A stretch of 64,000 nt of DNA, from assembly GCF_001654835.1 (NCBI RefSeq), contig NZ_LXEP01000031.1, positions 1-64,000 on the forward strand, read 5' to 3'. Position 1 is the first letter of the stretch. Each line of letters begins with the position of its first letter. This document shows positions 1-13,251 of the stretch, one piece after another. The translations under genes and the position numbers were made by a program. Origin of the DNA: Buttiauxella gaviniae ATCC 51604 (GTDB lineage: Bacteria > Pseudomonadota > Gammaproteobacteria > Enterobacterales > Enterobacteriaceae). The notes beneath the pieces were generated by a model. That model did no database searches. It saw nothing but the letters and a program-made list of their open reading frames with translations, and was not told the origin of the DNA.

Positions 1-2958
1 CAACTCACAGCCGAACAAGTTGTGGCAATGAATAGTTTACAGGAGCTGACTAGCGCTCAGTTTGGCTTATTAAATATTTCTGGGTTACCGGTTTCTGTTA
101 TTGCCAATTTAACCTCGACTGAATATGCAGGTCTTAGCGCAAAACAGACAGCGGCATTAAGCGCGGAACAAATTAATGCCCTGCAACACGTAGACTTGCT
201 GTCGGTTGCGGCGGTAAGTGGATTTACAGCCGCTCAAATGCCTGCTTTGAGTGATAACGTGCTTTCGAATTTAAGCGCACAGCAGGTTGCTGCAATAACG
301 CACTTAAGTGCACTGAATAGCCAACAGTTCGGGCTGTTAAATATTTCCCAACTGTCCGAATCAGCTATTAACGGTTTAAGCAAAACGGAATATGAAGGAT
401 TAACTGCACTTCAGGTTGCCACCTTAAGTCCTGCACAAATTAAGGCGATGTACCACCCATCCTGGATGTCGGATGCCACTGCGAGTGCTTTCACACCAGA
501 ACAGGTGCAAAACATCAGTATCGGTATGAACTGGTTCTCGGCGGGTTGGTTAAATAACCTGAGCCTTGAAACATTGCAGGCGATGACGCCTGTTCAGGCA
601 GGCCAGATTTCCAGCGCAACGCTTGCGGCCCTGGATAACGAGCACTTGCACTCCCTTAGTGCAGAACAGATCGGCGGCATGAATAACTTTGGTGGGCTGA
701 GTAGTGCGCAATTTGGCCTGTTAGATCTTTCCAAAATGCAAACGTCAGTCTTTAGTTATTTGAGTGACACCGAATATAAAGGGCTGACAGCTAATCAAAT
801 TGCCACCTTAAGCGCTGAACAAATTAACGCAATGGGCCATGCCGCATGGATGACCGATGATGCTGCATCTGGGTTTACGCCAGATCAGATTAAGAATTGC
901 ACCCAGAATTTTTACTGGTTCTCCCCTGGCTGGTTTAATAACCTGACGACAGAAGCATTCCATGCAATAAAACCTGAACAGATGGGCCAGGTGTACCTTG
1001 ATGCCTTTAATGGGCTGGACGCTGAACGTCGTGCCCAATTAACCGCGGACCAGGTTGGCGGAATTATCTATAATTTTTACTTCTTCTCTTCTGACTGGTT
1101 TAACAGTTTAAGTCCGGATGCGATGAAAGGGATAACTGCCGATCAGCTTGCCCATATTCAGACTGACAATTTTAAGCATTGGGATAACGACCATTTGGCT
1201 GCATTAACGGCAGCACAAGTCGCAGTTGCTCCGCACCTGAATGCACTGACTAGCGATCAGTTTGGGTATTTAAATATTTCCGAACTGCCAGTTTCGTCCA
1301 TTAAGCAATTATCTAAAACTGAATATCAAGGGTTAACCGCTCAGCAAATTGCCTCATTAAGTGCCGAGCAAATTCAGGGATTGCAGCACCTTAGTTGGAT
1401 CTCAGCGGCCGCAACTCAAGGTTTTACCACCGCCCAAATGCAGGCCTTTGGCAATGATTTATCAGGTTTTTCCTCGACATTCCTCAATAACCTGAGTCTG
1501 GATGCAATGAGTGCGCTCACTCCGTCACAGCTTAAGACCCTTACTCCTGTTGCATTTATTGGGCTGGAATATCGACATTTCCTTGCTATGAATAATTTCT
1601 CTGATTTGATTGATATGGTGTCGTCGTTCACTTCCGATCAGCTGTTAACGCTTTCCCCAATGCTGTCTATCGAGCAACAGGGGCTTCTGTCACAAGGCCA
1701 ACAGGCGTTAATTAACAAATCTGTGGATACGGGTTTCTCATTGGTTGACAGTGTGCATGACCCGATACTGAAAACCAGCATGCATAACGCAGTGACCAAC
1801 GACTCTTCTTTGTTTAGCTTTACAACGATTGAGTCAATTCTTAAGGATTTAGCCTCTCAATTAACCGGTGACCTTAACGCAAACCAGTACAACGACATAA
1901 AATATTATGTTCAGCAAGTTGGCAATGTTTGTGGGACTGACTCGGCAGTCTACTCGCTATTAAGCGGGTTGATGGGCACCAATGGCGCATCTGTTTACTG
2001 GAGTGCTACCGGTGACGGGGAGCGAATTGGCAGCTTGAGTGAGGGCTCGTCAGCCACGCAATTTAATCAGTTAATTTCTACCTGGTTTGATGGTGCGAAC
2101 GACCCGAAATCTTCCTCATCTGATCATGTTGATGGGCGCCCACTTTTCGCTAAAGGTGGCCCATCAATTAACGACATCACTCAAGGTTACATTGGGGATT
2201 GTTCGCTCCTGTCCGCACTTCAGGCGGTTGTTGAAACGGCGCCTGACTTCATTAAGTCAATGATTGTTCAGAACCCGAATGATACTTACAGTGTGCGCTT
2301 CTTTAATAAAGGCGTGGCTCAATGGGTCACAGTAGATGGCAATGCTTATAGCAGTGGTACAAATTCAGCAACCTCGAGTTGGGCGGCGATTGTCGAACGG
2401 GCGAACGTTGATTTTGAAGCGACTTATTTGAATGAAGTGAATGCTTACTCAAGTTTGCCTGGTGGCTACGACAAACTGGGGGAAATTACAGGTGACACCT
2501 ACACAACGTTCAGAGCGGTATATACAACTGAGGAAAAATGGAATACCACGGACTTTGATATATTGAAAACCGCGGTACTAAACGGCCAACCTGTGCAGCT
2601 TTCTAGTTGGGATAGCTCCGTAAATGCTGATACTGGGCAAACCAATCTTGTTGGCGGGCATGCTTTTGCGATTATCGGTTTTGATGACGTAACGAATGAT
2701 TTTATTCTTACCAACCCGTGGGGGGCTTTCCGTACTGACGGCGTCCAGGGAACATTTGAAGCCTCAATGGATCAAATGTGGCAGAAAGGAAATTACAATA
2801 CCGGTATTGCTATCGTTAACTCAACGGGAGCATCCGATGCTGCCGGGCAACTTGTTCACGCTATGGCCGCAATGAATACATCACCTTCGGCAGCGCTCAC
2901 AACAGCTGCGTTACCAGTCAATGTGAATAACGGCACTCTTGCTGCTTCACATGCCTGA
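1..2958 (+). CDS. Repeat-rich protein with C-terminal calpain-like (C2) cysteine protease domain, 5'-partial
   Basis: The reading frame is open from base 1 (QLTAEQV precedes the first possible start, a GTG at 22), so the gene begins outside the window. Residues are counted from the codon at 22. About 560 residues consist of leucine-rich units of the type LSAEQIxAL, including four copies of a 49-residue module. A linker follows, then a calpain-type domain (about 690-925). It shows QGYIGDCSLLSAL (oxyanion Gln721, nucleophile Cys727), GGHAFAI (His880) and LTNPWG (Asn898), so the full catalytic set is present. No GGxGxD calcium repeats or membrane segment are visible, and the N-terminal sorting signal lies off the window. 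The family cleaves proteins; bacterial members are poorly characterised. The substrate and export route are unknown. Its AT-richer look and patchy type of occurrence suggest an accessory gene (inference). Confidence 0.85.
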   Translation, partial: QLTAEQVVAMNSLQELTSAQFGLLNISGLPVSVIANLTSTEYAGLSAKQTAALSAEQINALQHVDLLSVAAVSGFTAAQMPALSDNVLSNLSAQQVAAITHLSALNSQQFGLLNISQLSESAINGLSKTEYEGLTALQVATLSPAQIKAMYHPSWMSDATASAFTPEQVQNISIGMNWFSAGWLNNLSLETLQAMTPVQAGQISSATLAALDNEHLHSLSAEQIGGMNNFGGLSSAQFGLLDLSKMQTSVFSYLSDTEYKGLTANQIATLSAEQINAMGHAAWMTDDAASGFTPDQIKNCTQNFYWFSPGWFNNLTTEAFHAIKPEQMGQVYLDAFNGLDAERRAQLTADQVGGIIYNFYFFSSDWFNSLSPDAMKGITADQLAHIQTDNFKHWDNDHLAALTAAQVAVAPHLNALTSDQFGYLNISELPVSSIKQLSKTEYQGLTAQQIASLSAEQIQGLQHLSWISAAATQGFTTAQMQAFGNDLSGFSSTFLNNLSLDAMSALTPSQLKTLTPVAFIGLEYRHFLAMNNFSDLIDMVSSFTSDQLLTLSPMLSIEQQGLLSQGQQALINKSVDTGFSLVDSVHDPILKTSMHNAVTNDSSLFSFTTIESILKDLASQLTGDLNANQYNDIKYYVQQVGNVCGTDSAVYSLLSGLMGTNGASVYWSATGDGERIGSLSEGSSATQFNQLISTWFDGANDPKSSSSDHVDGRPLFAKGGPSINDITQGYIGDCSLLSALQAVVETAPDFIKSMIVQNPNDTYSVRFFNKGVAQWVTVDGNAYSSGTNSATSSWAAIVERANVDFEATYLNEVNAYSSLPGGYDKLGEITGDTYTTFRAVYTTEEKWNTTDFDILKTAVLNGQPVQLSSWDSSVNADTGQTNLVGGHAFAIIGFDDVTNDFILTNPWGAFRTDGVQGTFEASMDQMWQKGNYNTGIAIVNSTGASDAAGQLVHAMAAMNTSPSAALTTAALPVNVNNGTLAASHA
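46..1392 (+). repeat. Four copies of a 49-residue coding module
   Basis: The module lies at 46-192, 313-459, 697-843 and 1246-1392, all in frame within the calpain-like gene. Each copy follows the pattern LxSxQFGLLNIS....LSxTEYxGLTAxQIATLSAEQIxAMxH. The copies are alike in protein but differ at many bases, so the duplication is old and under protein-level selection (inference). Between copies are looser units with F(S/T)xxW(L/F)NNLSxxAxxAxTP. The pattern suggests a solenoid made of short helical or turn units. Confidence 0.8.
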
Positions 2959-3273: not shown

Positions 3274-6200
3274 ATGAATAATATATATCGCTTAGTGTGG
3301 AGCCATGTTGCAAATAGTTTTATTGCTGTGGCAGAAATTTCTCGGGCAGGGAAAAAAGGCAGCAGGACTGGGCGAGGTAGCAGAAAGCTATTAACGACAG
3401 CAGCATTGATGCTTGCCGGGAGTTATTCAGGTGCTGCCAGTGCAGTTGATGTTATCAGGAATGCTGCATACCCAAACTATGCATTACTGCCTCCCTATGA
3501 TGCCGTGAAAAATACCGGTTATGCGTTTTCCATTGATGGCCAGCCATTGGCGAATCATTATGCTGCGGGCACAACGCTTAATGTTATCGGTGCAATACCT
3601 AATATCGCCACCGGTACCAATGGTAACAGCACGGGCGTTACGGTGCTAAATGGTCTGCCGGGTTCCACCGGGACCGACCCGAATCGCATTATTACTATTG
3701 TTGCAACTGATTCGAATAATAATCCCACACCAATTACCGCGGCTAACATTGGGCAATATACCTATTCACCTTCTCCTGCTGTGCCACAAGAAAGTCAGGA
3801 GCTCAATGTTACTGTTCCAGGTCTTGACGGTAGCTATCAGGTCATCAGTGTTTATGATTCATCGAGCTTTATCTCAGCGGGTGACACACCGGTAAGTAAT
3901 ATGGTGTTACCGGTTTACGATCATAACTCCATTCGGATATTTAATAATTTTGGTATTGCGTATGTGGCTCCGACCGGCGGGCAGGCAAATATTAATGTCG
4001 GTTCAAGCGATCCCAATACTGCCATTGCTGCACCAGAAAATACCATCGATCTGCTGACCAAAAATTCCGTATTGGCAAAAGCTGACGGTAGTGCAGGCGT
4101 TGCCAGTGGCACCCAATGGCTTTCCGATAACTACATCCATTTTCGCCCGGCAATTGTCCTTTCAACCGATACGCAAAGCCTTGAGGCTCAAAGCGCAAAA
4201 TACGACTTCTCAATTACATTGCCCAACTATGAACAGGTCGGGAATCGGGTACTTAAGCTTGGCAATAAAACCTTTGTTATCAACTCATCAAATGATATTG
4301 CCGAAGTTAATGACTTCCTGATAGGGGCGGGTGCATATAGCGGTAAACCGCAAATTCAGTACTGGCTCACAGCGGGTGCTGAGGTGAACGGTGAAGTTAT
4401 CGACTCCACGGTTGAAGCACAAAACACCTACGACGCCATTATTACCGGCATGCTGGGTAAAGAAGAAAACACCAGTATCAATCTCACCTACCACGTCTGG
4501 GATGACAAAGGCGTACACAACAATAACGCCACACAACCCACCGGTGATTTAAACGTTATTTATGCCACTGGAGCACAAGCGACGGGGCTGGTGACTGCTG
4601 ACGGGAGTCTGGCTGTTGATGGCGCATCTGCGGTAATGCGTGCTGATAATGGCGGCGTTATCACGAACGACGGTGCAATCAATGCGTGGCGCAGCAGCGG
4701 CAGCAGCCCAACTTCCGTCGGTATGATGGCAACTAACGCTACTGCGACTAACAATGGCACCTTAAATGCCGGATTGTTTATTGAAAAAAATGGCAGCAAT
4801 CAGAATGTCTCTAACGCGGGTAGCGTGGGGATGGAAGGGGCTGGTAGCAGTACGCTGGTTAACAATGGCCATATTAATACCGCGATTACCGACACCACCA
4901 CCAACAATGCGATTGGTATGCGTGCAACAGGTACGACAAATGCCACCAACGCCGCAACGGGTACTATCGCGGTGGTGGGTAATAGCAATAATGTGAATGG
5001 CAAAGCCGGTGGTTATGGGGTTTGGCTCGACCAAAATGCCACGTTTAGTAATGCCGGCAATATTTACCTCGGCTTCAATCCCGTTCTTAATTCAGCCACG
5101 CCAACTCCGGTGCCAATGACCGGTGGTGACCTTTCAGCTGGGATTCGTACGCAAAGCACGGCCGCCGTGAATAACAGCGGTACGATAACTATTGGTGAAA
5201 TGACGCGTAATGCTGCCGGGATTTCAGTGGAAGGCGCAACGGGTGCGGTTACCAACTCCGGCACGATTAATGTATTAGGCAAACTCACTAACGGATCTGC
5301 TGCGGCAAACTATGGTCTGAACGTTGTCGATAATATTGGTACCGTGACCCACAGCGGCACCATTAACGTTGATGGCGACAACAATATCGCCATTAATGTG
5401 CTGGCGCAGAAAGCAGGTGCTGCGGTGACAACTACCGGAGGAAGTGCCATTACCGTGGGCAAGGCGGGTGACACCGGCGGTAGCGATGGCCAGCCTTATA
5501 CTTACCGAAACTACGCGGTTTATGCCGAAGGGTTAAATACCCAACATGCGCAGGTAGATCTGAATTCCACGATAAGATTGCTATCAGCGGGGGCGATTGG
5601 TGTTCATGCGCGTGGTGATGCGCAAATTGATATTAACCCTGCTTCAACGCTCTCTTTCGAAAACGTTAAACAAATGGGTTATTACGCCTGGGGTAATAAG
5701 GCGAAGATTAATGTTGGCAATGCGAATATCAATGATAACGGCCAGGCTGACTCTATTTTATTTGCCGTTGACCACGGCGCGGTATTTGCTGGCGGCACAG
5801 GGGCTGCGGCGAGTTATCAGTTAACCGTGTCTGGTGATAACGCCACCGGGATTATTGCCAACGGCGTGGATGAAACAACCGGAACCAAGACTTCACTCAC
5901 CACTGGGACCGCAAAAATATTTGTGAATGGTGAAAATGCGGTTGGGGTGAAAGTCACCGGAGGTGCGGTCGGTAATATTAGCGATGGCGGCATTGTGTTG
6001 CAGCATAACAATACAACCGCCGTGTTGATTGATGGGCGTAATTACAATATCGACGGCTCGATTGATACTGACGAATTGCAAACGCTGGTGACATCGAACG
6101 CTTCCGTCACAAGCAGCGCTGGGCAAAGCGGGATTGTTGGCTATAACGTTTCCCATGCGGGTGAGCTGAATCTCAGTGGTAGCGGTATTTCGTTAAATGG

Positions 6201-9200
6201 CACCAACAGTACCGGAATCGTTTTGCATGACAACGGCAAGGCGACGGTAGCTGCACCGGTGACTGTCTCAGGCACCAATAATATTGGCGTCGATATTCAA
6301 AACAATAGCGCACTGACTAACAACAATCTGATTAGTGTCAGCGGTGCGGTGGGCAGCGGGAATGTCGGTGTGCGCGTCGGCGGGACGAACGCGGTGGTGA
6401 ACACCCTGGGCAACGTCAATGCCTCTGGCGGACTTGCCGCCGTTCAGCTGATTGGTGCTGGTGCTAACTTGACGGTTAACGGGACGGGTAACCACATTAC
6501 GGCATCAGGTGGGGCTGATGGTGTACGGATGGATGCCGGAGCTGCATCATTTACCGCAAGTAATACCGTTATCGACATTTCTGGCAGTGGCGCAGGGATT
6601 AATAACAATGCTGACACCTCGAATATCAATCTTAATGGCGTGACCATTAATGCCTCAAATGGCCCGGCGATTCGTACGGCTGTAACGTTTAACGCCGCAG
6701 GCACTAACAACACGCTAAATATCTCCGGTAACGGCCAGGGCTTCGCCTTTATGGATGCAAATGGGGCTCCCACAACCGGGAATCTCACCATTGATAATGG
6801 TTACACCATCAATGGTACGGGGGCTGGCAGTGTCGGTATTCTGGCAAGAACCGCCGGTAATGTGAGTTCCGGCGCCACTATCAATATGGTGGCGGGGGCG
6901 GGGTCTGCGATAGTTGCAACGGATGGTTCTGTGGGCAGCAACCGGACAATCACCAACACCGGAGCAATAACAAGTCTGGGCGCGGGTGCTCCAGTAATTA
7001 ACGCTTCCAGTGCGAGCAATACTACCGTCAATAACAGCGGTACGTTGCTTGCGGCGAATGCCACGGCGCAGGCCATTCTCACCGGGACCGGCAATGATGT
7101 AGTGGCATTAAGCGGTTCGGGGGCGAATACACGCGGCGAAATCAACCTTGGAAGCGGTAATGATAATTTCAGTTGGACGGCGGGTGCTTTCACCGGCGGC
7201 GTCACGTTTACGGGGGCAGATGGCAACGATAGTGCAACTCTTGGTGATGTTTCGCTTGCCAGCGTTACGCATATTTTAAGTGAAGGTGGCACCAATAATG
7301 CCTTAACGCTTAACGGCACCCATCAGGGGGCAGCTCCGGCTTTAATCGGCGCCTTTAACGCTGATGACCTCACGAAGGGCACCAATATTGGCACTGGCTG
7401 GAGTTCTTTAACCTTAAATGGTGATGCCACAGATGCACGTATTGTTGACGACCTGGTGCTTTCCGGTACGCAGGCCATAAACATTAACAACGGTGCGACG
7501 CTGCGCAGTGGCACAAGCGCTGCCACCACCGCTGACTCATCGATTCATAACTACAACGTCACCACTTCGGGAGCGACAAGCCTGCTGTCATTTGATGGTG
7601 CAAGCGATCAGATTTATACCGGGATTATCAGTGGCAGCGGCGGCATGGAACGTATCAACGCGGGCAAAACTACATTGCTTGGCAACAGTACTTACACCGG
7701 AAACACTTATATTGGCTCGGGGGCGGAACTGGCATTGGGTGATGGTGGCACTGTCGGTAGTGTGTCTGAAACCACCAATATCACCGATGATGGCATTTTG
7801 ACGATTGACCGTTCTGACAACATTGCCCTTAACGGCGTGATTTCGGGGAGTGGGGCGTTCCATCAAGATGGCCTCGGGATTACGCGACTGGGTGGTGCCA
7901 ACGCCTGGAAAGGGGCGACAGAAGTTAATCAAGGTACATTGCTGGTCAATGGTAATCAAAGCCAGGCAACTGGGCTTACCACCGTCCATTCGAACACCAC
8001 ATTAGGCGGCAATGGCACCATTGGTGGGGATGTCGCATTTGAAGGCAACACCACTCTGACGCCGGGAGATGGCGGGGTCGGCAAACTGACGATCAATGGT
8101 GATTTGACGTTGGCGAGCACCACCAACAGCAAGTTTGAGCTGGGCGAACCCTATGTGTCTGGTGGGGCACTTAACGATGTCGTGAATGTGGGGGGGGATC
8201 TGGTTCTTGATGGTGATCTTAATGTCACGCTGTCAAGTGGGGGCTATTTCATTCCGGGCGTCTATCGCCTGTTTAACTACGTAGGAGAATTAACCAATCA
8301 CATCATGAATATTGTTTCACTTCCGGCGAATAGTGGTGGTGATTACTATATTCAGACTGCTCTTCCTAATGAAGTTAACCTTATTCTGAATTACTTGAAT
8401 CCTGCTTCAGAACTGCAGTTCTGGGATGGTGGTAGCGCAGCGGGCCATGGGACAGGCGGTGTTGGTGGCGATAATAATGTCAACGGTGGCGATGGAGTCT
8501 GGCGTGCTAATCGATTCGGCCAGACGAATAACTGGACTCAGGGAAATGGCGTCGGTAATGAGCCATGGGCAGCAACTGCCTTTGCTGTATTTGAGGGACA
8601 AAAAGGCACTGTCACTATAAGTAATGACAATGGACGAGTCATCACCTCTGGTATGCAATTCCTGACAGATGGTTATGTACTGCAACAACTTAATGCCATC
8701 TCTCAATTGCATTACATCAGCACCGTAACGGATGCTTTCAATACTACGGCACCAAAACCGGCCAACCGTTTCCAGTCGGATGGGGAAACCGAGGCGGATA
8801 GTTTCTTTGTTATCCGGGTCGGGGCCGCGGGTAGTAATAATGTGACGACGACAATCAATGCGAATTTGGTTCAGGACGAGTTAGACAGCGGTGTAGTGCG
8901 ATTACTGAAAACCGATCCGGGCCGTTTGATCCTCAATGGCATCAATGATTTCAGCGGTGGGGTAGAGATCTGGGGCGGAACTTTGCAGGTCTCTAAAGAC
9001 GAAAGCCTGGGCGATTCAGGGACATCCATAACGATCAGAAATGCTTCGGCTTTGCAGGCGGGGGCTGATTTCACTACTAATCGTAATATTTATCTTGATG
9101 GCGCCACCGGTGGTTCGTTTGATTTATACGGTAACACCTTCACGCCGGCGGGTCTGATTGCCGGCGATGGGCCGCTCAACGTCTATGATACCTCGGGCGG

Positions 9201-12200
9201 CAGCGACAGCAGTTTCCTCGAGATGAACCGGAAAAATATTTATCAGGGCGATACCAATATTGTCGGCAACGACAATAACGGGCAACTGACCGTCAATGCT
9301 AATGCCACTGGTGTGTTTGGCAAGGTGAACAGCCAGGTTTCTGTTTCCAATAATGCATTGCTAAATCTCAATAATTCAGCCTCTGGTGAGGCCCATACCT
9401 TTGAAGTCAATGATGCGAGTCTGGCATTCCACGATACCGCAGGGGCCGGGCAGAGCACCATCAATCTGACACAAGGTGCTAATGCGACATTCACTGATGA
9501 AAGCCACGGTGATAACGCTAATGTAACTGTTGACGCCAGTTCGACACTTGCGCTCGAAGGCAGCGCGGATGCCGGTTCGGCGACGGTTGCTAACAGCGGT
9601 ACGGTTAAGTTTGCCGACAATGCGCAGGGCGCAGGGGCGGTGATTTCAAACCTTGCGGGTGGTTTAGTTGATATCAGCGCGGCACTGGCCAGTACGTCAG
9701 TCGGTTCGTTATCGGGCGCGGGTAACATTGCACTGGGAGCCGCAACGTTGGTTGAAGGGGCATTAGGGCGCAATGACACCATCAGCGGCATTATTGGTGG
9801 CAGTGGAAACCTGGTGAAAACTGGAAACGGTACGCTGAATCTCACCGCAGCCAATACCTGGACCGGCAGTACCACCGCACAGCAAGGCGTGTTGTTGATC
9901 AACGGTAATCAAGTGGCTGCGACGGGTAAAACCACCGTCAATAACGGCGCAACACTCGGTGGTGCTGGCGTGTTGGGTGGCAGCGTTGTTGTTGATGACG
10001 GTGGGCACCTGGCCGCAGGGCAGGACCTGGCAAGCGTAGGTGTGCTGACAATGGGCGCATTAACACTCAACCAAAACTCACAAGTCGACTTCCAGTTTGG
10101 CCAGCCCTACACCGTTGGCGGCGCGCTTAACGATCTGATCAACATCAATGGCGATCTCAACCTTAACGGCAAACTGAATATCACACAGACTCCGGGTGGC
10201 AGCTTTGATGTCGGGGTTTATCGCGTGTTCAATTATACCGGTGCGTTGACCGACAATATTCTGGAGATAGGTTCCGCGCCTCCGGCAGCAGACGATCTCT
10301 ATGTTCAAACCTCAATTGCAGGCCAGGTCAATCTGGTGAATCGCACCGGCTATGTCATGCGCTTCTGGGATGGATTTGGCGGCACGGGTGGGGCGCTGAA
10401 AAACAACGGCGTGATCGACGGCGGCAACGGTATCTGGCAAAGCGGCAGTGGTAATGATAACTGGACGACGGACGTCACTACCCCGGACGGACGTTTTAAT
10501 ACACCGTTTAGCGATGGTTCATTCGCGGTATTTGGCGGCACTGCGGGCAATGTCACGATAGATACAAGCCTGGGCGAAGTCGCGATTAGCGGCGCGCAAT
10601 TTGCCACCGACGGTTACGTAGTTGGCGGTGATAACCTCACCACGCATACCGCCAATACCGTGATTCGCGTAGGCGATGGTACGGCGCCGAGCGCGGGCTA
10701 CACCGCGACTATCAACTCGGTTATCGACGGCGAAGGCGGCATCAACAAGGCCGACCTCGGCACCTTGATTCTTAACGGTAACAACCAATACCAGGGCGGA
10801 ACCCAGGTCAGCGGCGGCGTCCTGCAAGTTGCATCCGACAACAATCTGGGCGCGGCGGGAACCGGGATTGGCCTGAGCGGCGGCACATTGCGTTACGGTG
10901 CCGCCTTTGACACGGCACGCCAGGTCACGCTTTCCGGCGTCGGCGGGGCTATCGATACCAACGGCAACTCGGTTTCACTGTTAAACGCTGTCACCGGCAA
11001 CGGCGACTTCACCAAGCTGGGTAAAGGCACCTTGACGCTCACCCAGGACAGCAGTTTTGCAGGACTTACCACCGTCAGTGATGGTGTGCTGCAATTGGGC
11101 AACGGTGGAACGGCAGGTAATGTGGGCGGCAATATTGTCGACAACGCGACTCTTGCGATTAACCGCAGCGACACCTTTACCCTAAACGGCGATATATCGG
11201 GCAGCGGGCGAGTCTGGCAGCAAGGTAGTGGCACCACTATTCTCAACGGTAGTAATACCTGGAGTGGGATTACTCTTGTCGAGAAAGGGACTTTGCTTGC
11301 GTCGGGCGAGGACCGCTTTAGCCAGAAATCGAGCCATATTGTCAGCAGTGGTGCCACTCTGGATACTGGCGGCTACAGCCAGTCAGTCGCCAATCTGGTT
11401 AACCAGGGAACCATCAATCTGCGTGGCGGTGATGTGGGCTCAACACTCACGGTGAATGGTAGCTATGTGGGTGTCGATGGCACGTTGAAAATTGCTGCGC
11501 AACAGCACAGCCCTGGTGTTGCTGACCGTCTGGTTATCAATGGTGGCACTGCTTCTGGCAGCACGCTTTTGGATATCGATGTTAGCCAGTTGGGCGAGCC
11601 TACTACGGGTGATGGTATTTTGGTTGTTGACGCCGTTAATGGCGCAACTACCACCGCACAGACCACTAAAGATGCCTTTAACATCGGCGGCGATATTCTG
11701 ACTGCCGGAGCCTGGGAATACCAATTGTTTGCCGGAAATGCTCAGGGCGCGGGCGAGGATTGGTTCTTGCGCGCGGGCTATCGACCGGATGTTCCAGGGT
11801 TTGATACGCTGGCCGCGATCATCCGCCAGGCTGATCTTACTGTTCTCGGCACACTTCACCAGCGTGTGGGTGATGAGCAACCGTACAAGGCCGATGTGCC
11901 TGAAGATCAGGAAGGGCGTTTCTGGGCGCGTTACATCGTGAAGTCGGTCGATCAGAAACATGATGACCCAACCCAATCGCAAAGCAGCACCAACTACAAT
12001 GGCATGCAGATGGGGCTTGATCTCTGGCAGAACGATAAATGGCGTGCGGGTTTGTACACCACCTTTATGGATACTGACAGCTCAATCAGTGGCATAACCG
12101 GGATGAGTGGCGGCGACGCTTATAACTCTACATTCTCGTCTTACCTTGGCGGCTACGGAACCTGGACTGATACCAACGGCTTGTATGTCGATAATGTTTT

Positions 12201-12759
12201 GCAGTACGGATACCACTCGGTTGATTTGAAGAATATGTATGATCGCGAGACTTACAATCCTGATGGCAATTCGTTTACGGCATCTGTCGAAGTGGGTAAA
12301 CCGTGGCAACTGGGTGACAGTAACTGGCTGATTGAACCGCAGGCGCAATTAATCTACCAATACAGTGATTTTGATGACGTAACACTCAAGGATCGTGGCA
12401 AAACCAAAGTCTCGGTTAATGCTGACGGTTCTGTTATTGGTCGCCTCGGCGTTCGCCTGGCGGCGGATTACGATACTAACTACGGCAAAGTGAAACCGTA
12501 TGTGCGCGTCAACTACTGGCAGGAGCTCTCTGATGGGCAGGACACCGTGACCTGGAAGAACACGGCGAATAACGCCGCAGCAACGGATATCAATGCCAAC
12601 CAGCGCTTCCAGACTACCGAAGTTGCCGTCGGCACCACATGGGCAGTGACTGCGGATGTACAGGGCTATACTGAAATCGGGAAAACATGGGATGGCGGAG
12701 GTGATACTTCCGTGTCATCAGATGTTTCGGCGTCGGTGGGTATGAAGATCCGCTTCTAA
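3274..12759 (+). CDS. Giant type Va autotransporter adhesin-like protein
   Basis: This is a secreted or surface protein of 3161 residues. The frame is open from a TTG at 3214, but the ATG at 3274 is preferred because it begins an extended signal peptide (ESPR; MNNIYRLVWSHV) followed by a hydrophobic stretch and a likely cleavage after ASA (residue 57). The passenger is low-complexity, rich in G, N, T and S, with beta-helix-type repeats (GxLxLxGxNxYxGxTxV, the passenger-associated transport repeat style). It contains a large tandem-like duplication. The last ~280 residues (from about EGRFWARYIVKSVD) form a 12-strand-type autotransporter barrel ending in aromatic F (KIRF). There is no visible serine protease motif, so adhesion or aggregation is the likeliest role; the ligand is unknown. 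The gene is monocistronic by context, between an AT-rich gap and a REP element. Confidence 0.88.
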   Translation: MNNIYRLVWSHVANSFIAVAEISRAGKKGSRTGRGSRKLLTTAALMLAGSYSGAASAVDVIRNAAYPNYALLPPYDAVKNTGYAFSIDGQPLANHYAAGTTLNVIGAIPNIATGTNGNSTGVTVLNGLPGSTGTDPNRIITIVATDSNNNPTPITAANIGQYTYSPSPAVPQESQELNVTVPGLDGSYQVISVYDSSSFISAGDTPVSNMVLPVYDHNSIRIFNNFGIAYVAPTGGQANINVGSSDPNTAIAAPENTIDLLTKNSVLAKADGSAGVASGTQWLSDNYIHFRPAIVLSTDTQSLEAQSAKYDFSITLPNYEQVGNRVLKLGNKTFVINSSNDIAEVNDFLIGAGAYSGKPQIQYWLTAGAEVNGEVIDSTVEAQNTYDAIITGMLGKEENTSINLTYHVWDDKGVHNNNATQPTGDLNVIYATGAQATGLVTADGSLAVDGASAVMRADNGGVITNDGAINAWRSSGSSPTSVGMMATNATATNNGTLNAGLFIEKNGSNQNVSNAGSVGMEGAGSSTLVNNGHINTAITDTTTNNAIGMRATGTTNATNAATGTIAVVGNSNNVNGKAGGYGVWLDQNATFSNAGNIYLGFNPVLNSATPTPVPMTGGDLSAGIRTQSTAAVNNSGTITIGEMTRNAAGISVEGATGAVTNSGTINVLGKLTNGSAAANYGLNVVDNIGTVTHSGTINVDGDNNIAINVLAQKAGAAVTTTGGSAITVGKAGDTGGSDGQPYTYRNYAVYAEGLNTQHAQVDLNSTIRLLSAGAIGVHARGDAQIDINPASTLSFENVKQMGYYAWGNKAKINVGNANINDNGQADSILFAVDHGAVFAGGTGAAASYQLTVSGDNATGIIANGVDETTGTKTSLTTGTAKIFVNGENAVGVKVTGGAVGNISDGGIVLQHNNTTAVLIDGRNYNIDGSIDTDELQTLVTSNASVTSSAGQSGIVGYNVSHAGELNLSGSGISLNGTNSTGIVLHDNGKATVAAPVTVSGTNNIGVDIQNNSALTNNNLISVSGAVGSGNVGVRVGGTNAVVNTLGNVNASGGLAAVQLIGAGANLTVNGTGNHITASGGADGVRMDAGAASFTASNTVIDISGSGAGINNNADTSNINLNGVTINASNGPAIRTAVTFNAAGTNNTLNISGNGQGFAFMDANGAPTTGNLTIDNGYTINGTGAGSVGILARTAGNVSSGATINMVAGAGSAIVATDGSVGSNRTITNTGAITSLGAGAPVINASSASNTTVNNSGTLLAANATAQAILTGTGNDVVALSGSGANTRGEINLGSGNDNFSWTAGAFTGGVTFTGADGNDSATLGDVSLASVTHILSEGGTNNALTLNGTHQGAAPALIGAFNADDLTKGTNIGTGWSSLTLNGDATDARIVDDLVLSGTQAININNGATLRSGTSAATTADSSIHNYNVTTSGATSLLSFDGASDQIYTGIISGSGGMERINAGKTTLLGNSTYTGNTYIGSGAELALGDGGTVGSVSETTNITDDGILTIDRSDNIALNGVISGSGAFHQDGLGITRLGGANAWKGATEVNQGTLLVNGNQSQATGLTTVHSNTTLGGNGTIGGDVAFEGNTTLTPGDGGVGKLTINGDLTLASTTNSKFELGEPYVSGGALNDVVNVGGDLVLDGDLNVTLSSGGYFIPGVYRLFNYVGELTNHIMNIVSLPANSGGDYYIQTALPNEVNLILNYLNPASELQFWDGGSAAGHGTGGVGGDNNVNGGDGVWRANRFGQTNNWTQGNGVGNEPWAATAFAVFEGQKGTVTISNDNGRVITSGMQFLTDGYVLQQLNAISQLHYISTVTDAFNTTAPKPANRFQSDGETEADSFFVIRVGAAGSNNVTTTINANLVQDELDSGVVRLLKTDPGRLILNGINDFSGGVEIWGGTLQVSKDESLGDSGTSITIRNASALQAGADFTTNRNIYLDGATGGSFDLYGNTFTPAGLIAGDGPLNVYDTSGGSDSSFLEMNRKNIYQGDTNIVGNDNNGQLTVNANATGVFGKVNSQVSVSNNALLNLNNSASGEAHTFEVNDASLAFHDTAGAGQSTINLTQGANATFTDESHGDNANVTVDASSTLALEGSADAGSATVANSGTVKFADNAQGAGAVISNLAGGLVDISAALASTSVGSLSGAGNIALGAATLVEGALGRNDTISGIIGGSGNLVKTGNGTLNLTAANTWTGSTTAQQGVLLINGNQVAATGKTTVNNGATLGGAGVLGGSVVVDDGGHLAAGQDLASVGVLTMGALTLNQNSQVDFQFGQPYTVGGALNDLININGDLNLNGKLNITQTPGGSFDVGVYRVFNYTGALTDNILEIGSAPPAADDLYVQTSIAGQVNLVNRTGYVMRFWDGFGGTGGALKNNGVIDGGNGIWQSGSGNDNWTTDVTTPDGRFNTPFSDGSFAVFGGTAGNVTIDTSLGEVAISGAQFATDGYVVGGDNLTTHTANTVIRVGDGTAPSAGYTATINSVIDGEGGINKADLGTLILNGNNQYQGGTQVSGGVLQVASDNNLGAAGTGIGLSGGTLRYGAAFDTARQVTLSGVGGAIDTNGNSVSLLNAVTGNGDFTKLGKGTLTLTQDSSFAGLTTVSDGVLQLGNGGTAGNVGGNIVDNATLAINRSDTFTLNGDISGSGRVWQQGSGTTILNGSNTWSGITLVEKGTLLASGEDRFSQKSSHIVSSGATLDTGGYSQSVANLVNQGTINLRGGDVGSTLTVNGSYVGVDGTLKIAAQQHSPGVADRLVINGGTASGSTLLDIDVSQLGEPTTGDGILVVDAVNGATTTAQTTKDAFNIGGDILTAGAWEYQLFAGNAQGAGEDWFLRAGYRPDVPGFDTLAAIIRQADLTVLGTLHQRVGDEQPYKADVPEDQEGRFWARYIVKSVDQKHDDPTQSQSSTNYNGMQMGLDLWQNDKWRAGLYTTFMDTDSSISGITGMSGGDAYNSTFSSYLGGYGTWTDTNGLYVDNVLQYGYHSVDLKNMYDRETYNPDGNSFTASVEVGKPWQLGDSNWLIEPQAQLIYQYSDFDDVTLKDRGKTKVSVNADGSVIGRLGVRLAADYDTNYGKVKPYVRVNYWQELSDGQDTVTWKNTANNAAATDINANQRFQTTEVAVGTTWAVTADVQGYTEIGKTWDGGGDTSVSSDVSASVGMKIRF
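7879..11040 (+). repeat. Large internal duplication in autotransporter passenger
   Basis: Two long diverged units are recognisable in translation: about 7879-9195 and 9835-11040. Matching landmarks in order are NxWxGxTxVxQGxLLxNGNQ, (E/Q)PY..GGALND, GVYR.FNY.G.LT, FWDG, G(V/I)W......NW, FAVF.G..G.VTI, QF.TDGYV, and ILNG.N.....GV.I/QV.GG.LQV. The first unit carries an extra ~42 residues near 8677-8805 that are missing from the second. The right-hand limits are approximate. Confidence 0.75.
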
Positions 12760-12849: not shown

Positions 12850-13251
12850 ATGAACATCAGCGATGTAGCGAAAAGGACCGGTTTAACCAGCAAAGCGATT
12901 CGTTTTTATGAAGAAAAGGGGCTCGTGACAGCACCGCTTCGTTCTGAAAACGGCTACCGTAGCTATTCGCAAAAACATCTTGATGAGCTGACCTTGCTGC
13001 GCCAGGCACGGCAGGTGGGGTTTAATCTTGAAGAGTGTCGCGAGCTGGTCAATTTGTTCAACGACCCGGCGCGACACAGTGCGGATGTGAAAACACGTAC
13101 GCTACAAAAAGTGGCGGATATTGAAAAACATATCAGTGAGCTTCAGGCGATGCGCCAACAACTGCTGGCGCTTGCCGAATCCTGTCCAGGAGATGACAGC
13201 GCAGATTGCCCGATCATCGATAACCTTTCGGGCTGTTGCCATCGCCAGTAA
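12850..13251 (+). CDS. cueR: Copper-responsive MerR-family regulator CueR
   Basis: Cytoplasmic Cu(I)/Ag(I) sensor that activates copA and cueO in E. coli by distorting promoter DNA. The protein is 133 residues (E. coli 135). It has the N-terminal MerR helix-turn-helix ([20 protein letters not shown]), the long dimerisation helix, and the metal loop with Cys112 and Cys120 (CPGDDSADC), plus Ser77. The ATG at 12850 was chosen over the GTG/ATG upstream frame because GGAGGAAAC precedes it directly and it matches the family start; the extra upstream codons would run through the REP palindrome. copA is not in the window, so targets must be elsewhere or left of the accessory genes. Confidence 0.93.

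Follow-up and report, generated by a model that had tools for sequence, protein, structure and literature searches.

Calpains have mostly been studied as cytoplasmic enzymes of eukaryotes. In bacteria, the C2 calpains are described as rare, with the peptidase domain mostly in C-terminal position and predicted signal peptides in three of 66; some are multidomain and possibly secreted, and the calcium sites of the protease core are reported to be absent from the bacterial homologues (Rawlings 2015, PMC4631099). Neither "type I secretion" nor "leucine-rich" occurs in the text of PMC4631099. The gene of Buttiauxella gaviniae described here shares with these bacterial calpains the calpain core and its catalytic residues, the rarity and the often C-terminal peptidase domain. 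It differs from them by an ALTTAQ repeat solenoid, by linkage to a HlyB-type exporter and by belonging to a multicopy family.

Two other described systems are close. The repeats score above the cut-off of the Pfam ALTTAQ repeat family (PF20080), which is here fused to a calpain. As in the HlyB/HlyD/TolC exporters of RTX proteins, ABC transporter and adaptor genes above the NCBIfam cut-offs lie beside the gene in relatives and on contig C29 of the same genome; unlike in those systems, 17 Buttiauxella proteins lack RTX nonapeptides and the channel scores just under its cut-off. Our literature search, with most subscription journals outside its coverage, found no ALTTAQ–calpain architecture. It also returned nothing for ALTTAQ as a name string, no relation to a protein family for the string PF20080, and nothing on point for Buttiauxella with calpain or with type I secretion, as judged from titles and opening lines.

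The calpain domain and its repeat scaffold

The DNA analysed (the window, 64,000 nucleotides) is C31:1-64000, the beginning of one contig in a genome of 5,068,083 bases and 133 contigs. Its first gene is a single open frame on the forward strand (frame +1, 1-2958; 985 aa left; stop codon 2956-2958), which is open from the first base. Since the window starts at base 1 of contig C31, this frame is incomplete: the gene was cut by the assembly and its 5' end is missing. The remaining protein part is acidic (87 Asp+Glu vs. 33 Lys+Arg).

Residues 713-914 (2137-2742, forward strand) match Pfam Peptidase_C2 (PF00648) with 47.2 bits, for a cut-off of 23.8. The calpain relationship put forward in the initial annotation from the letters alone is thus supported by sequence, and solved calpains are also matched by sequence profile. 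We aligned the seven paralogous calpain domains of the Buttiauxella gaviniae genome (profile A1); the best PDB match of A1 in a sequence profile search is calpain-9 (E 2e-9), and its QG..GDC, GHA and NPWG blocks coincide with blocks of solved calpains in the alignments shown. The catalytic set, which had been read as intact, is complete in the window protein: Gln728 at the oxyanion-hole glutamine position (codon 2182-2184), Cys734 at the nucleophile position (2200-2202), His887 (2659-2661) and Asn905 (2713-2715), all on the forward strand. These residues are counted from base 1; the numbers given previously (Cys727, His880, Asn898) were counted from a GTG at base 22.

The four residues are conserved in 17/17 domains, namely the seven of this genome and ten from six other Buttiauxella genomes, at pairwise identities down to 42%. 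For ten sequences (last 295 codons, Nei-Gojobori), dN/dS lies between 0.03 and 0.24 in all pairs with a computable dS (43 of 45), many dS values being near saturation. As judged from these sequences, the conserved calpain site is under purifying selection. The structure model of the catalytic domain (mean pLDDT 48.5) is too poor for a fold search, and the presumed proximity of Cys, His and Asn therefore rests on the sequence alignment to solved calpains.

A conserved segment precedes the calpain domain (about residues 576-706, 1726-2118, forward strand, borders approximate). It is kept in A1 and is common to a calpain of a distant proteobacterial genus (L064); in BLASTP, the window protein and this distant protein share 26% identity (E 1e-26), and the match starts ahead of the calpain core. 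Behind the domain, the C-terminal tail (residues 915-985, 2743-2955, forward strand) is partly conserved in A1 and is a candidate type I secretion signal.

The initial annotation had placed the calpain on a large repeat region, and about 560 residues of repeats do lie ahead of the calpain part (residues 1-560, 1-1680, forward strand). Its description of this region as a leucine-rich repeat scaffold was not supported. The repeats match Pfam ALTTAQ_rpt (PF20080; 54.9 bits for a cut-off of 26.4). Over the first 555 residues, shifts of 311, 128 and 183 residues give peaks of sequence identity, all three above the maximum of 50 shuffles (0.258 at shift 311, vs. at most 0.163 at any shift in the shuffles). 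A lesser peak at shift 8 is below this maximum in the window chain (0.154 vs. 0.163) and above it in the longer relatives tried. A structure model of residues 1-560, built from the window protein and four Buttiauxella orthologues, reaches a mean pLDDT of 89.6, with no strands and 55 helices of at least 4 residues; 52 of these helices are 4-6 residues long, and the spacing from one helix start to the next is 8 residues in 35 of 54 cases. Leucine-rich repeat proteins are built of strand-turn units that form a parallel sheet, and we rejected this reading on the predicted all-helical fold.

No leucine-rich repeat profile matched the window protein in the Pfam scan. Among its paralogues, the one on contig C58 matches LRR_EndoS above the cut-off (35.7 bits for 27.9) and the one on C57 below it (20.5 bits), and three exceed the cut-off of CAAP1, a eukaryotic family, in the same scan. 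These LRR_EndoS and CAAP1 matches would reflect repeat composition, and the leucine-rich label fails because the predicted fold is helical, despite the score on C58. The top fold matches of the repeat model are short-helix superhelices of the mesothelin type; they are weak (query TM-score 0.18, identity 10-20% in the rows listed), the tool cautions that such Z-scores may reflect a mere common arrangement, and we claim no relationship. No leucine-rich repeat entry is among the 50 VIA-align matches listed, which mainly cover residues 279-560 of the model and to which we give no weight as evidence.

Exporter linkage and gene copies in Buttiauxella

A scan of named species genomes for the calpain region, with two short peptide patterns that may miss relatives, gave four loci, all in Buttiauxella: B. 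brennerae (98% identity), B. noackiae (93%), B. massiliensis (84%) and B. izardii (72%). Each of these four species has a complete calpain gene in divergent orientation to an exporter set (HlyB-type ABC transporter, HlyD adaptor and TolC-like channel), and copA lies on the far side of this set. The same gene order is found on contig C29 of our genome, where copA is named by its NCBIfam match and the contig runs out within a gene of this type, of which the N-terminal 349 aa are present. The ABC transporter on C29 exceeds the type_I_sec_HlyB cut-off of 725.55 with 968 bits, and the adaptor that of type_I_hlyD (208.65) with 303.8 bits; the TolC-like channel is below its cut-off (type_I_sec_TolC, 204.1 for 225.15).

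In the window, the calpain gene is followed by a type V autotransporter with ESPR and PATR (3274-12759, forward strand; listed frame from TTG 3214, likely start ATG 3274) and then by cueR (12850-13251, forward strand; NCBIfam CueR 208.1 bits for a cut-off of 147.4, match from residue 22; listed frame from 12787), which marks the right-hand flank of the copA-cueR site. In B. noackiae, the exporter and the calpain gene lie between copA and a cueR-like gene. We located copA in all five genomes of the genus without a calpain gene and read its upstream flank: the calpain gene is absent there, and cueR is directly next in three genomes, a GGDEF gene lies between in one, and an autotransporter is next in one (far side unread). 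Exporter and calpain therefore come and go together at the copA site, being both present in B. noackiae and both missing in the gene-less genomes. This synteny makes it very probable that the window and C29 represent opposite sides of a single locus, and it is through synteny with C29 and the relatives that the window gene is tied to an exporter.

Of the 12 Buttiauxella genomes, seven contain a calpain match, and exactly these seven also have a HlyB match above the cut-off. The lowest HlyB match above the cut-off reaches 921.9 bits vs. 447.5 for the best of the weaker ABC matches, which occur in 12/12 genomes. By chance alone, such agreement would have an exact probability of 1/792, a value that ignores shared ancestry and concerns 12 genomes of one genus. 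In addition, the six other genomes together have ten calpain domains, each lying about 12 kb or less from a HlyB-type transporter over the cut-off. Within our genome, exporter genes lie beside gene parts on contigs C29, C53, C57 and C60 (the channel on C53 being named by likeness only), and none was seen on C31, C52, C58 and C61 or on C42 as far as read.

Type I exporters require no N-terminal signal. A secretion signal had been thought invisible because the 5' end is missing; probably there is no classical one, since none is apparent by eye in 12 complete proteins, three from this genome and nine from other genomes, and the locus of the relatives carries a type I exporter. This HlyB/HlyD/TolC-like exporter does support the secretion that had been considered probable. 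The GGxGxD motif of RTX nonapeptides is absent from 17/17 proteins, and an RTX protein is ruled out by this lack of glycine-aspartate repeats.

Seven places in the Buttiauxella gaviniae genome match Peptidase_C2. Three of these genes are complete (1829, 1013 and 1609 aa); the other four, including the window gene, are C-terminal parts cut by a contig end. N-terminal gene parts terminate contigs C29, C53 and C61. The orthologues at the same site measure 814, 1170, 1475 and 1530 aa, so the number of repeats changes fast, and this rapid change may account for the contig breaks at these genes. Gene copies are multiplied and the repeat number is quickly variable, as with surface-exposed proteins. 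A second genome (G004) contains five calpain domains, four of them in one island. In this island (L058, L059, L129), three HlyB-type exporters score above the cut-off, and further genes encode a GH18-like protein, a small RTX protein and two autotransporters.

Distribution of calpain domains and ALTTAQ repeats

Calpains had been described as rare in enterobacteria, and our counts agree: A1 matches 5 of 392 sampled Enterobacteriaceae genomes, all of them Buttiauxella (one of 154 genera). At the level of the order, Peptidase_C2 was found in 6 of 394 genomes and three of 114 genera; besides three Buttiauxella genomes, these are three genomes from two genera in two further families. In two of these three other loci (L049, L051), which were read, the calpain frames are 454 and 456 aa long with no such repeats seen.

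At the level of the phylum, A1 matches 5 of 398 genomes. Of these, two are Buttiauxella, two come from a single distant genus and one is marginal (8e-4). The proteins of the distant proteobacterial genus (L062, L064) share with ours the calpain domain and the preceding segment, within large repeat proteins. They differ in architecture: in the two of three proteins that were scanned, the calpain occupies the N-terminus, with Calx-beta repeats, not ALTTAQ, behind it; the ALTTAQ–calpain fusion is thus absent among the two calpain proteins outside Buttiauxella scanned with Pfam. The Calx-beta stretches number 10-11 (L062 83-6778, L064 5159-10609), and one protein also has RCC1-like repeats; here the calpain domain is joined to a different type of repeat scaffold. 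A type I-style ABC gene lies near the calpain gene in one genome of this genus (HlyB 660.6, under the cut-off of 725.55).

ALTTAQ repeats were detected in 27 of 388 genomes of the phylum. Counting the best-scoring locus per genome, an ABC + HlyD pair accompanies the ALTTAQ gene in 6 of 25 non-Buttiauxella genomes (G790, G800, G827, G831, G886, G1082) and is lacking from the stretch read in the other 19, several of these stretches ending at contig ends; two extra loci without exporter (L102, L105) are excluded from this count. Three of the six positive loci match by construction, because the ABC and HlyD profiles were built partly from loci first seen by eye (L099, L101, L107). One of the six ABC transporters is a PrtD-type exporter (722.4, over the cut-off of 510.15), and another of the six that was tested fits HlyB best (581.6, under the cut-off). 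Type I export is therefore not supported as a rule for ALTTAQ proteins at large. In six other proteobacterial genomes, giant ALTTAQ proteins without calpain match adjoin ABC + HlyD genes (L099, L106, L107, L112, L126, L100-L101).

Mobile elements were also considered as carriers of the gene. Phage cargo was rejected, with no phage match, as was plasmid cargo, for which the three matches were distant (query coverage 41-62% and identity <30% in each).

Proposed function and neighbouring genes

The product of the gene is probably an extracellular cysteine protease that is free of RTX repeats and leaves the cell by type I secretion; its predicted helical solenoid would bind or position targets. 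We favour this reading because the protein is acidic and RTX-free, linked to HlyB in relatives, and carries a conserved calpain site under purifying selection. As gene linkage suggests, the HlyB-type ABC transporter, HlyD adaptor and TolC-like channel of the divergent operon would move the acidic RTX-free chain across the envelope by means of a C-terminal signal. Outside the cell, the N-terminal part is predicted to fold as a short-helix solenoid, which may bind or space a target, and the C-terminal calpain-like domain, related to calpains in sequence and in its Cys-His-Asn residues, would cleave target proteins. Possible targets are proteins of other microbes, proteins of invertebrate or plant hosts, and matrix proteins.

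Protease and scaffold are on one chain with the protease C-terminal, an arrangement that would also suit a self-processing module: after export, the calpain domain might cut its own chain or sister copies and free the solenoid as the real effector or adhesin, by analogy with the MARTX cysteine protease domain (PMC3034196). We regard this as unlikely; the several near-complete copies per genome, each with an intact site, neither require nor exclude self-cleavage. Less likely still, the protein could be first of all an exported adhesin or structural repeat protein, in which the calpain domain would now serve for binding or folding and would cleave proteins little or not at all. Repeats do occupy more than half of the chain in 13 of the 17 proteins listed, the exceptions including two truncated at contig ends, but the invariance of Gln, Cys, His and Asn across the 17 divergent domains and the low dN/dS argue against such a loss of activity. 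That the protein stays cytoplasmic or leaves by another route, the exporter serving other substrates nearby, is very improbable: the window has no exporter gene, 19 of the 25 ALTTAQ genomes outside the genus have no pair in the stretch read, and one island offers alternative candidates beside its exporters (the GH18-like and small RTX proteins), but HlyB and calpain agree in 12/12 genomes of the genus, are jointly absent at the copA site and are directly and divergently linked in the named relatives.

A secreted multicopy calpain in culturable enterobacteria would allow testing how the core is harmless within the cell yet works outside it, and also what the ALTTAQ repeat family does; type I export would be the first functional lead for part of this family. 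More tentatively, and with slightly less than even confidence, we propose that ALTTAQ solenoids are a so far unrecognised scaffold for RTX-free type I secretion. Buttiauxella would have armed this scaffold with an active calpain and built from it a multigene, repeat-variable secreted family, with seven and five domains in two genomes and up to three HlyB-type exporters in one island. On this reading, there would be a system for calpain secretion outside eukaryotes.

Other genes recur around the calpain loci. The autotransporter located 3' of the calpain gene in the window (about 3,160 aa) has calpain-adjacent counterparts in L027, L029 and L030, and not in L028. Genes encoding EAL-domain (cyclic-di-GMP) proteins lie near three calpain loci (L010 3-647, L011 5670-7862, L060 12309-13910), and two related winged-helix regulators (HTH_46) are encoded close to calpain genes (L009 5650-6291, L012 10271-10984).
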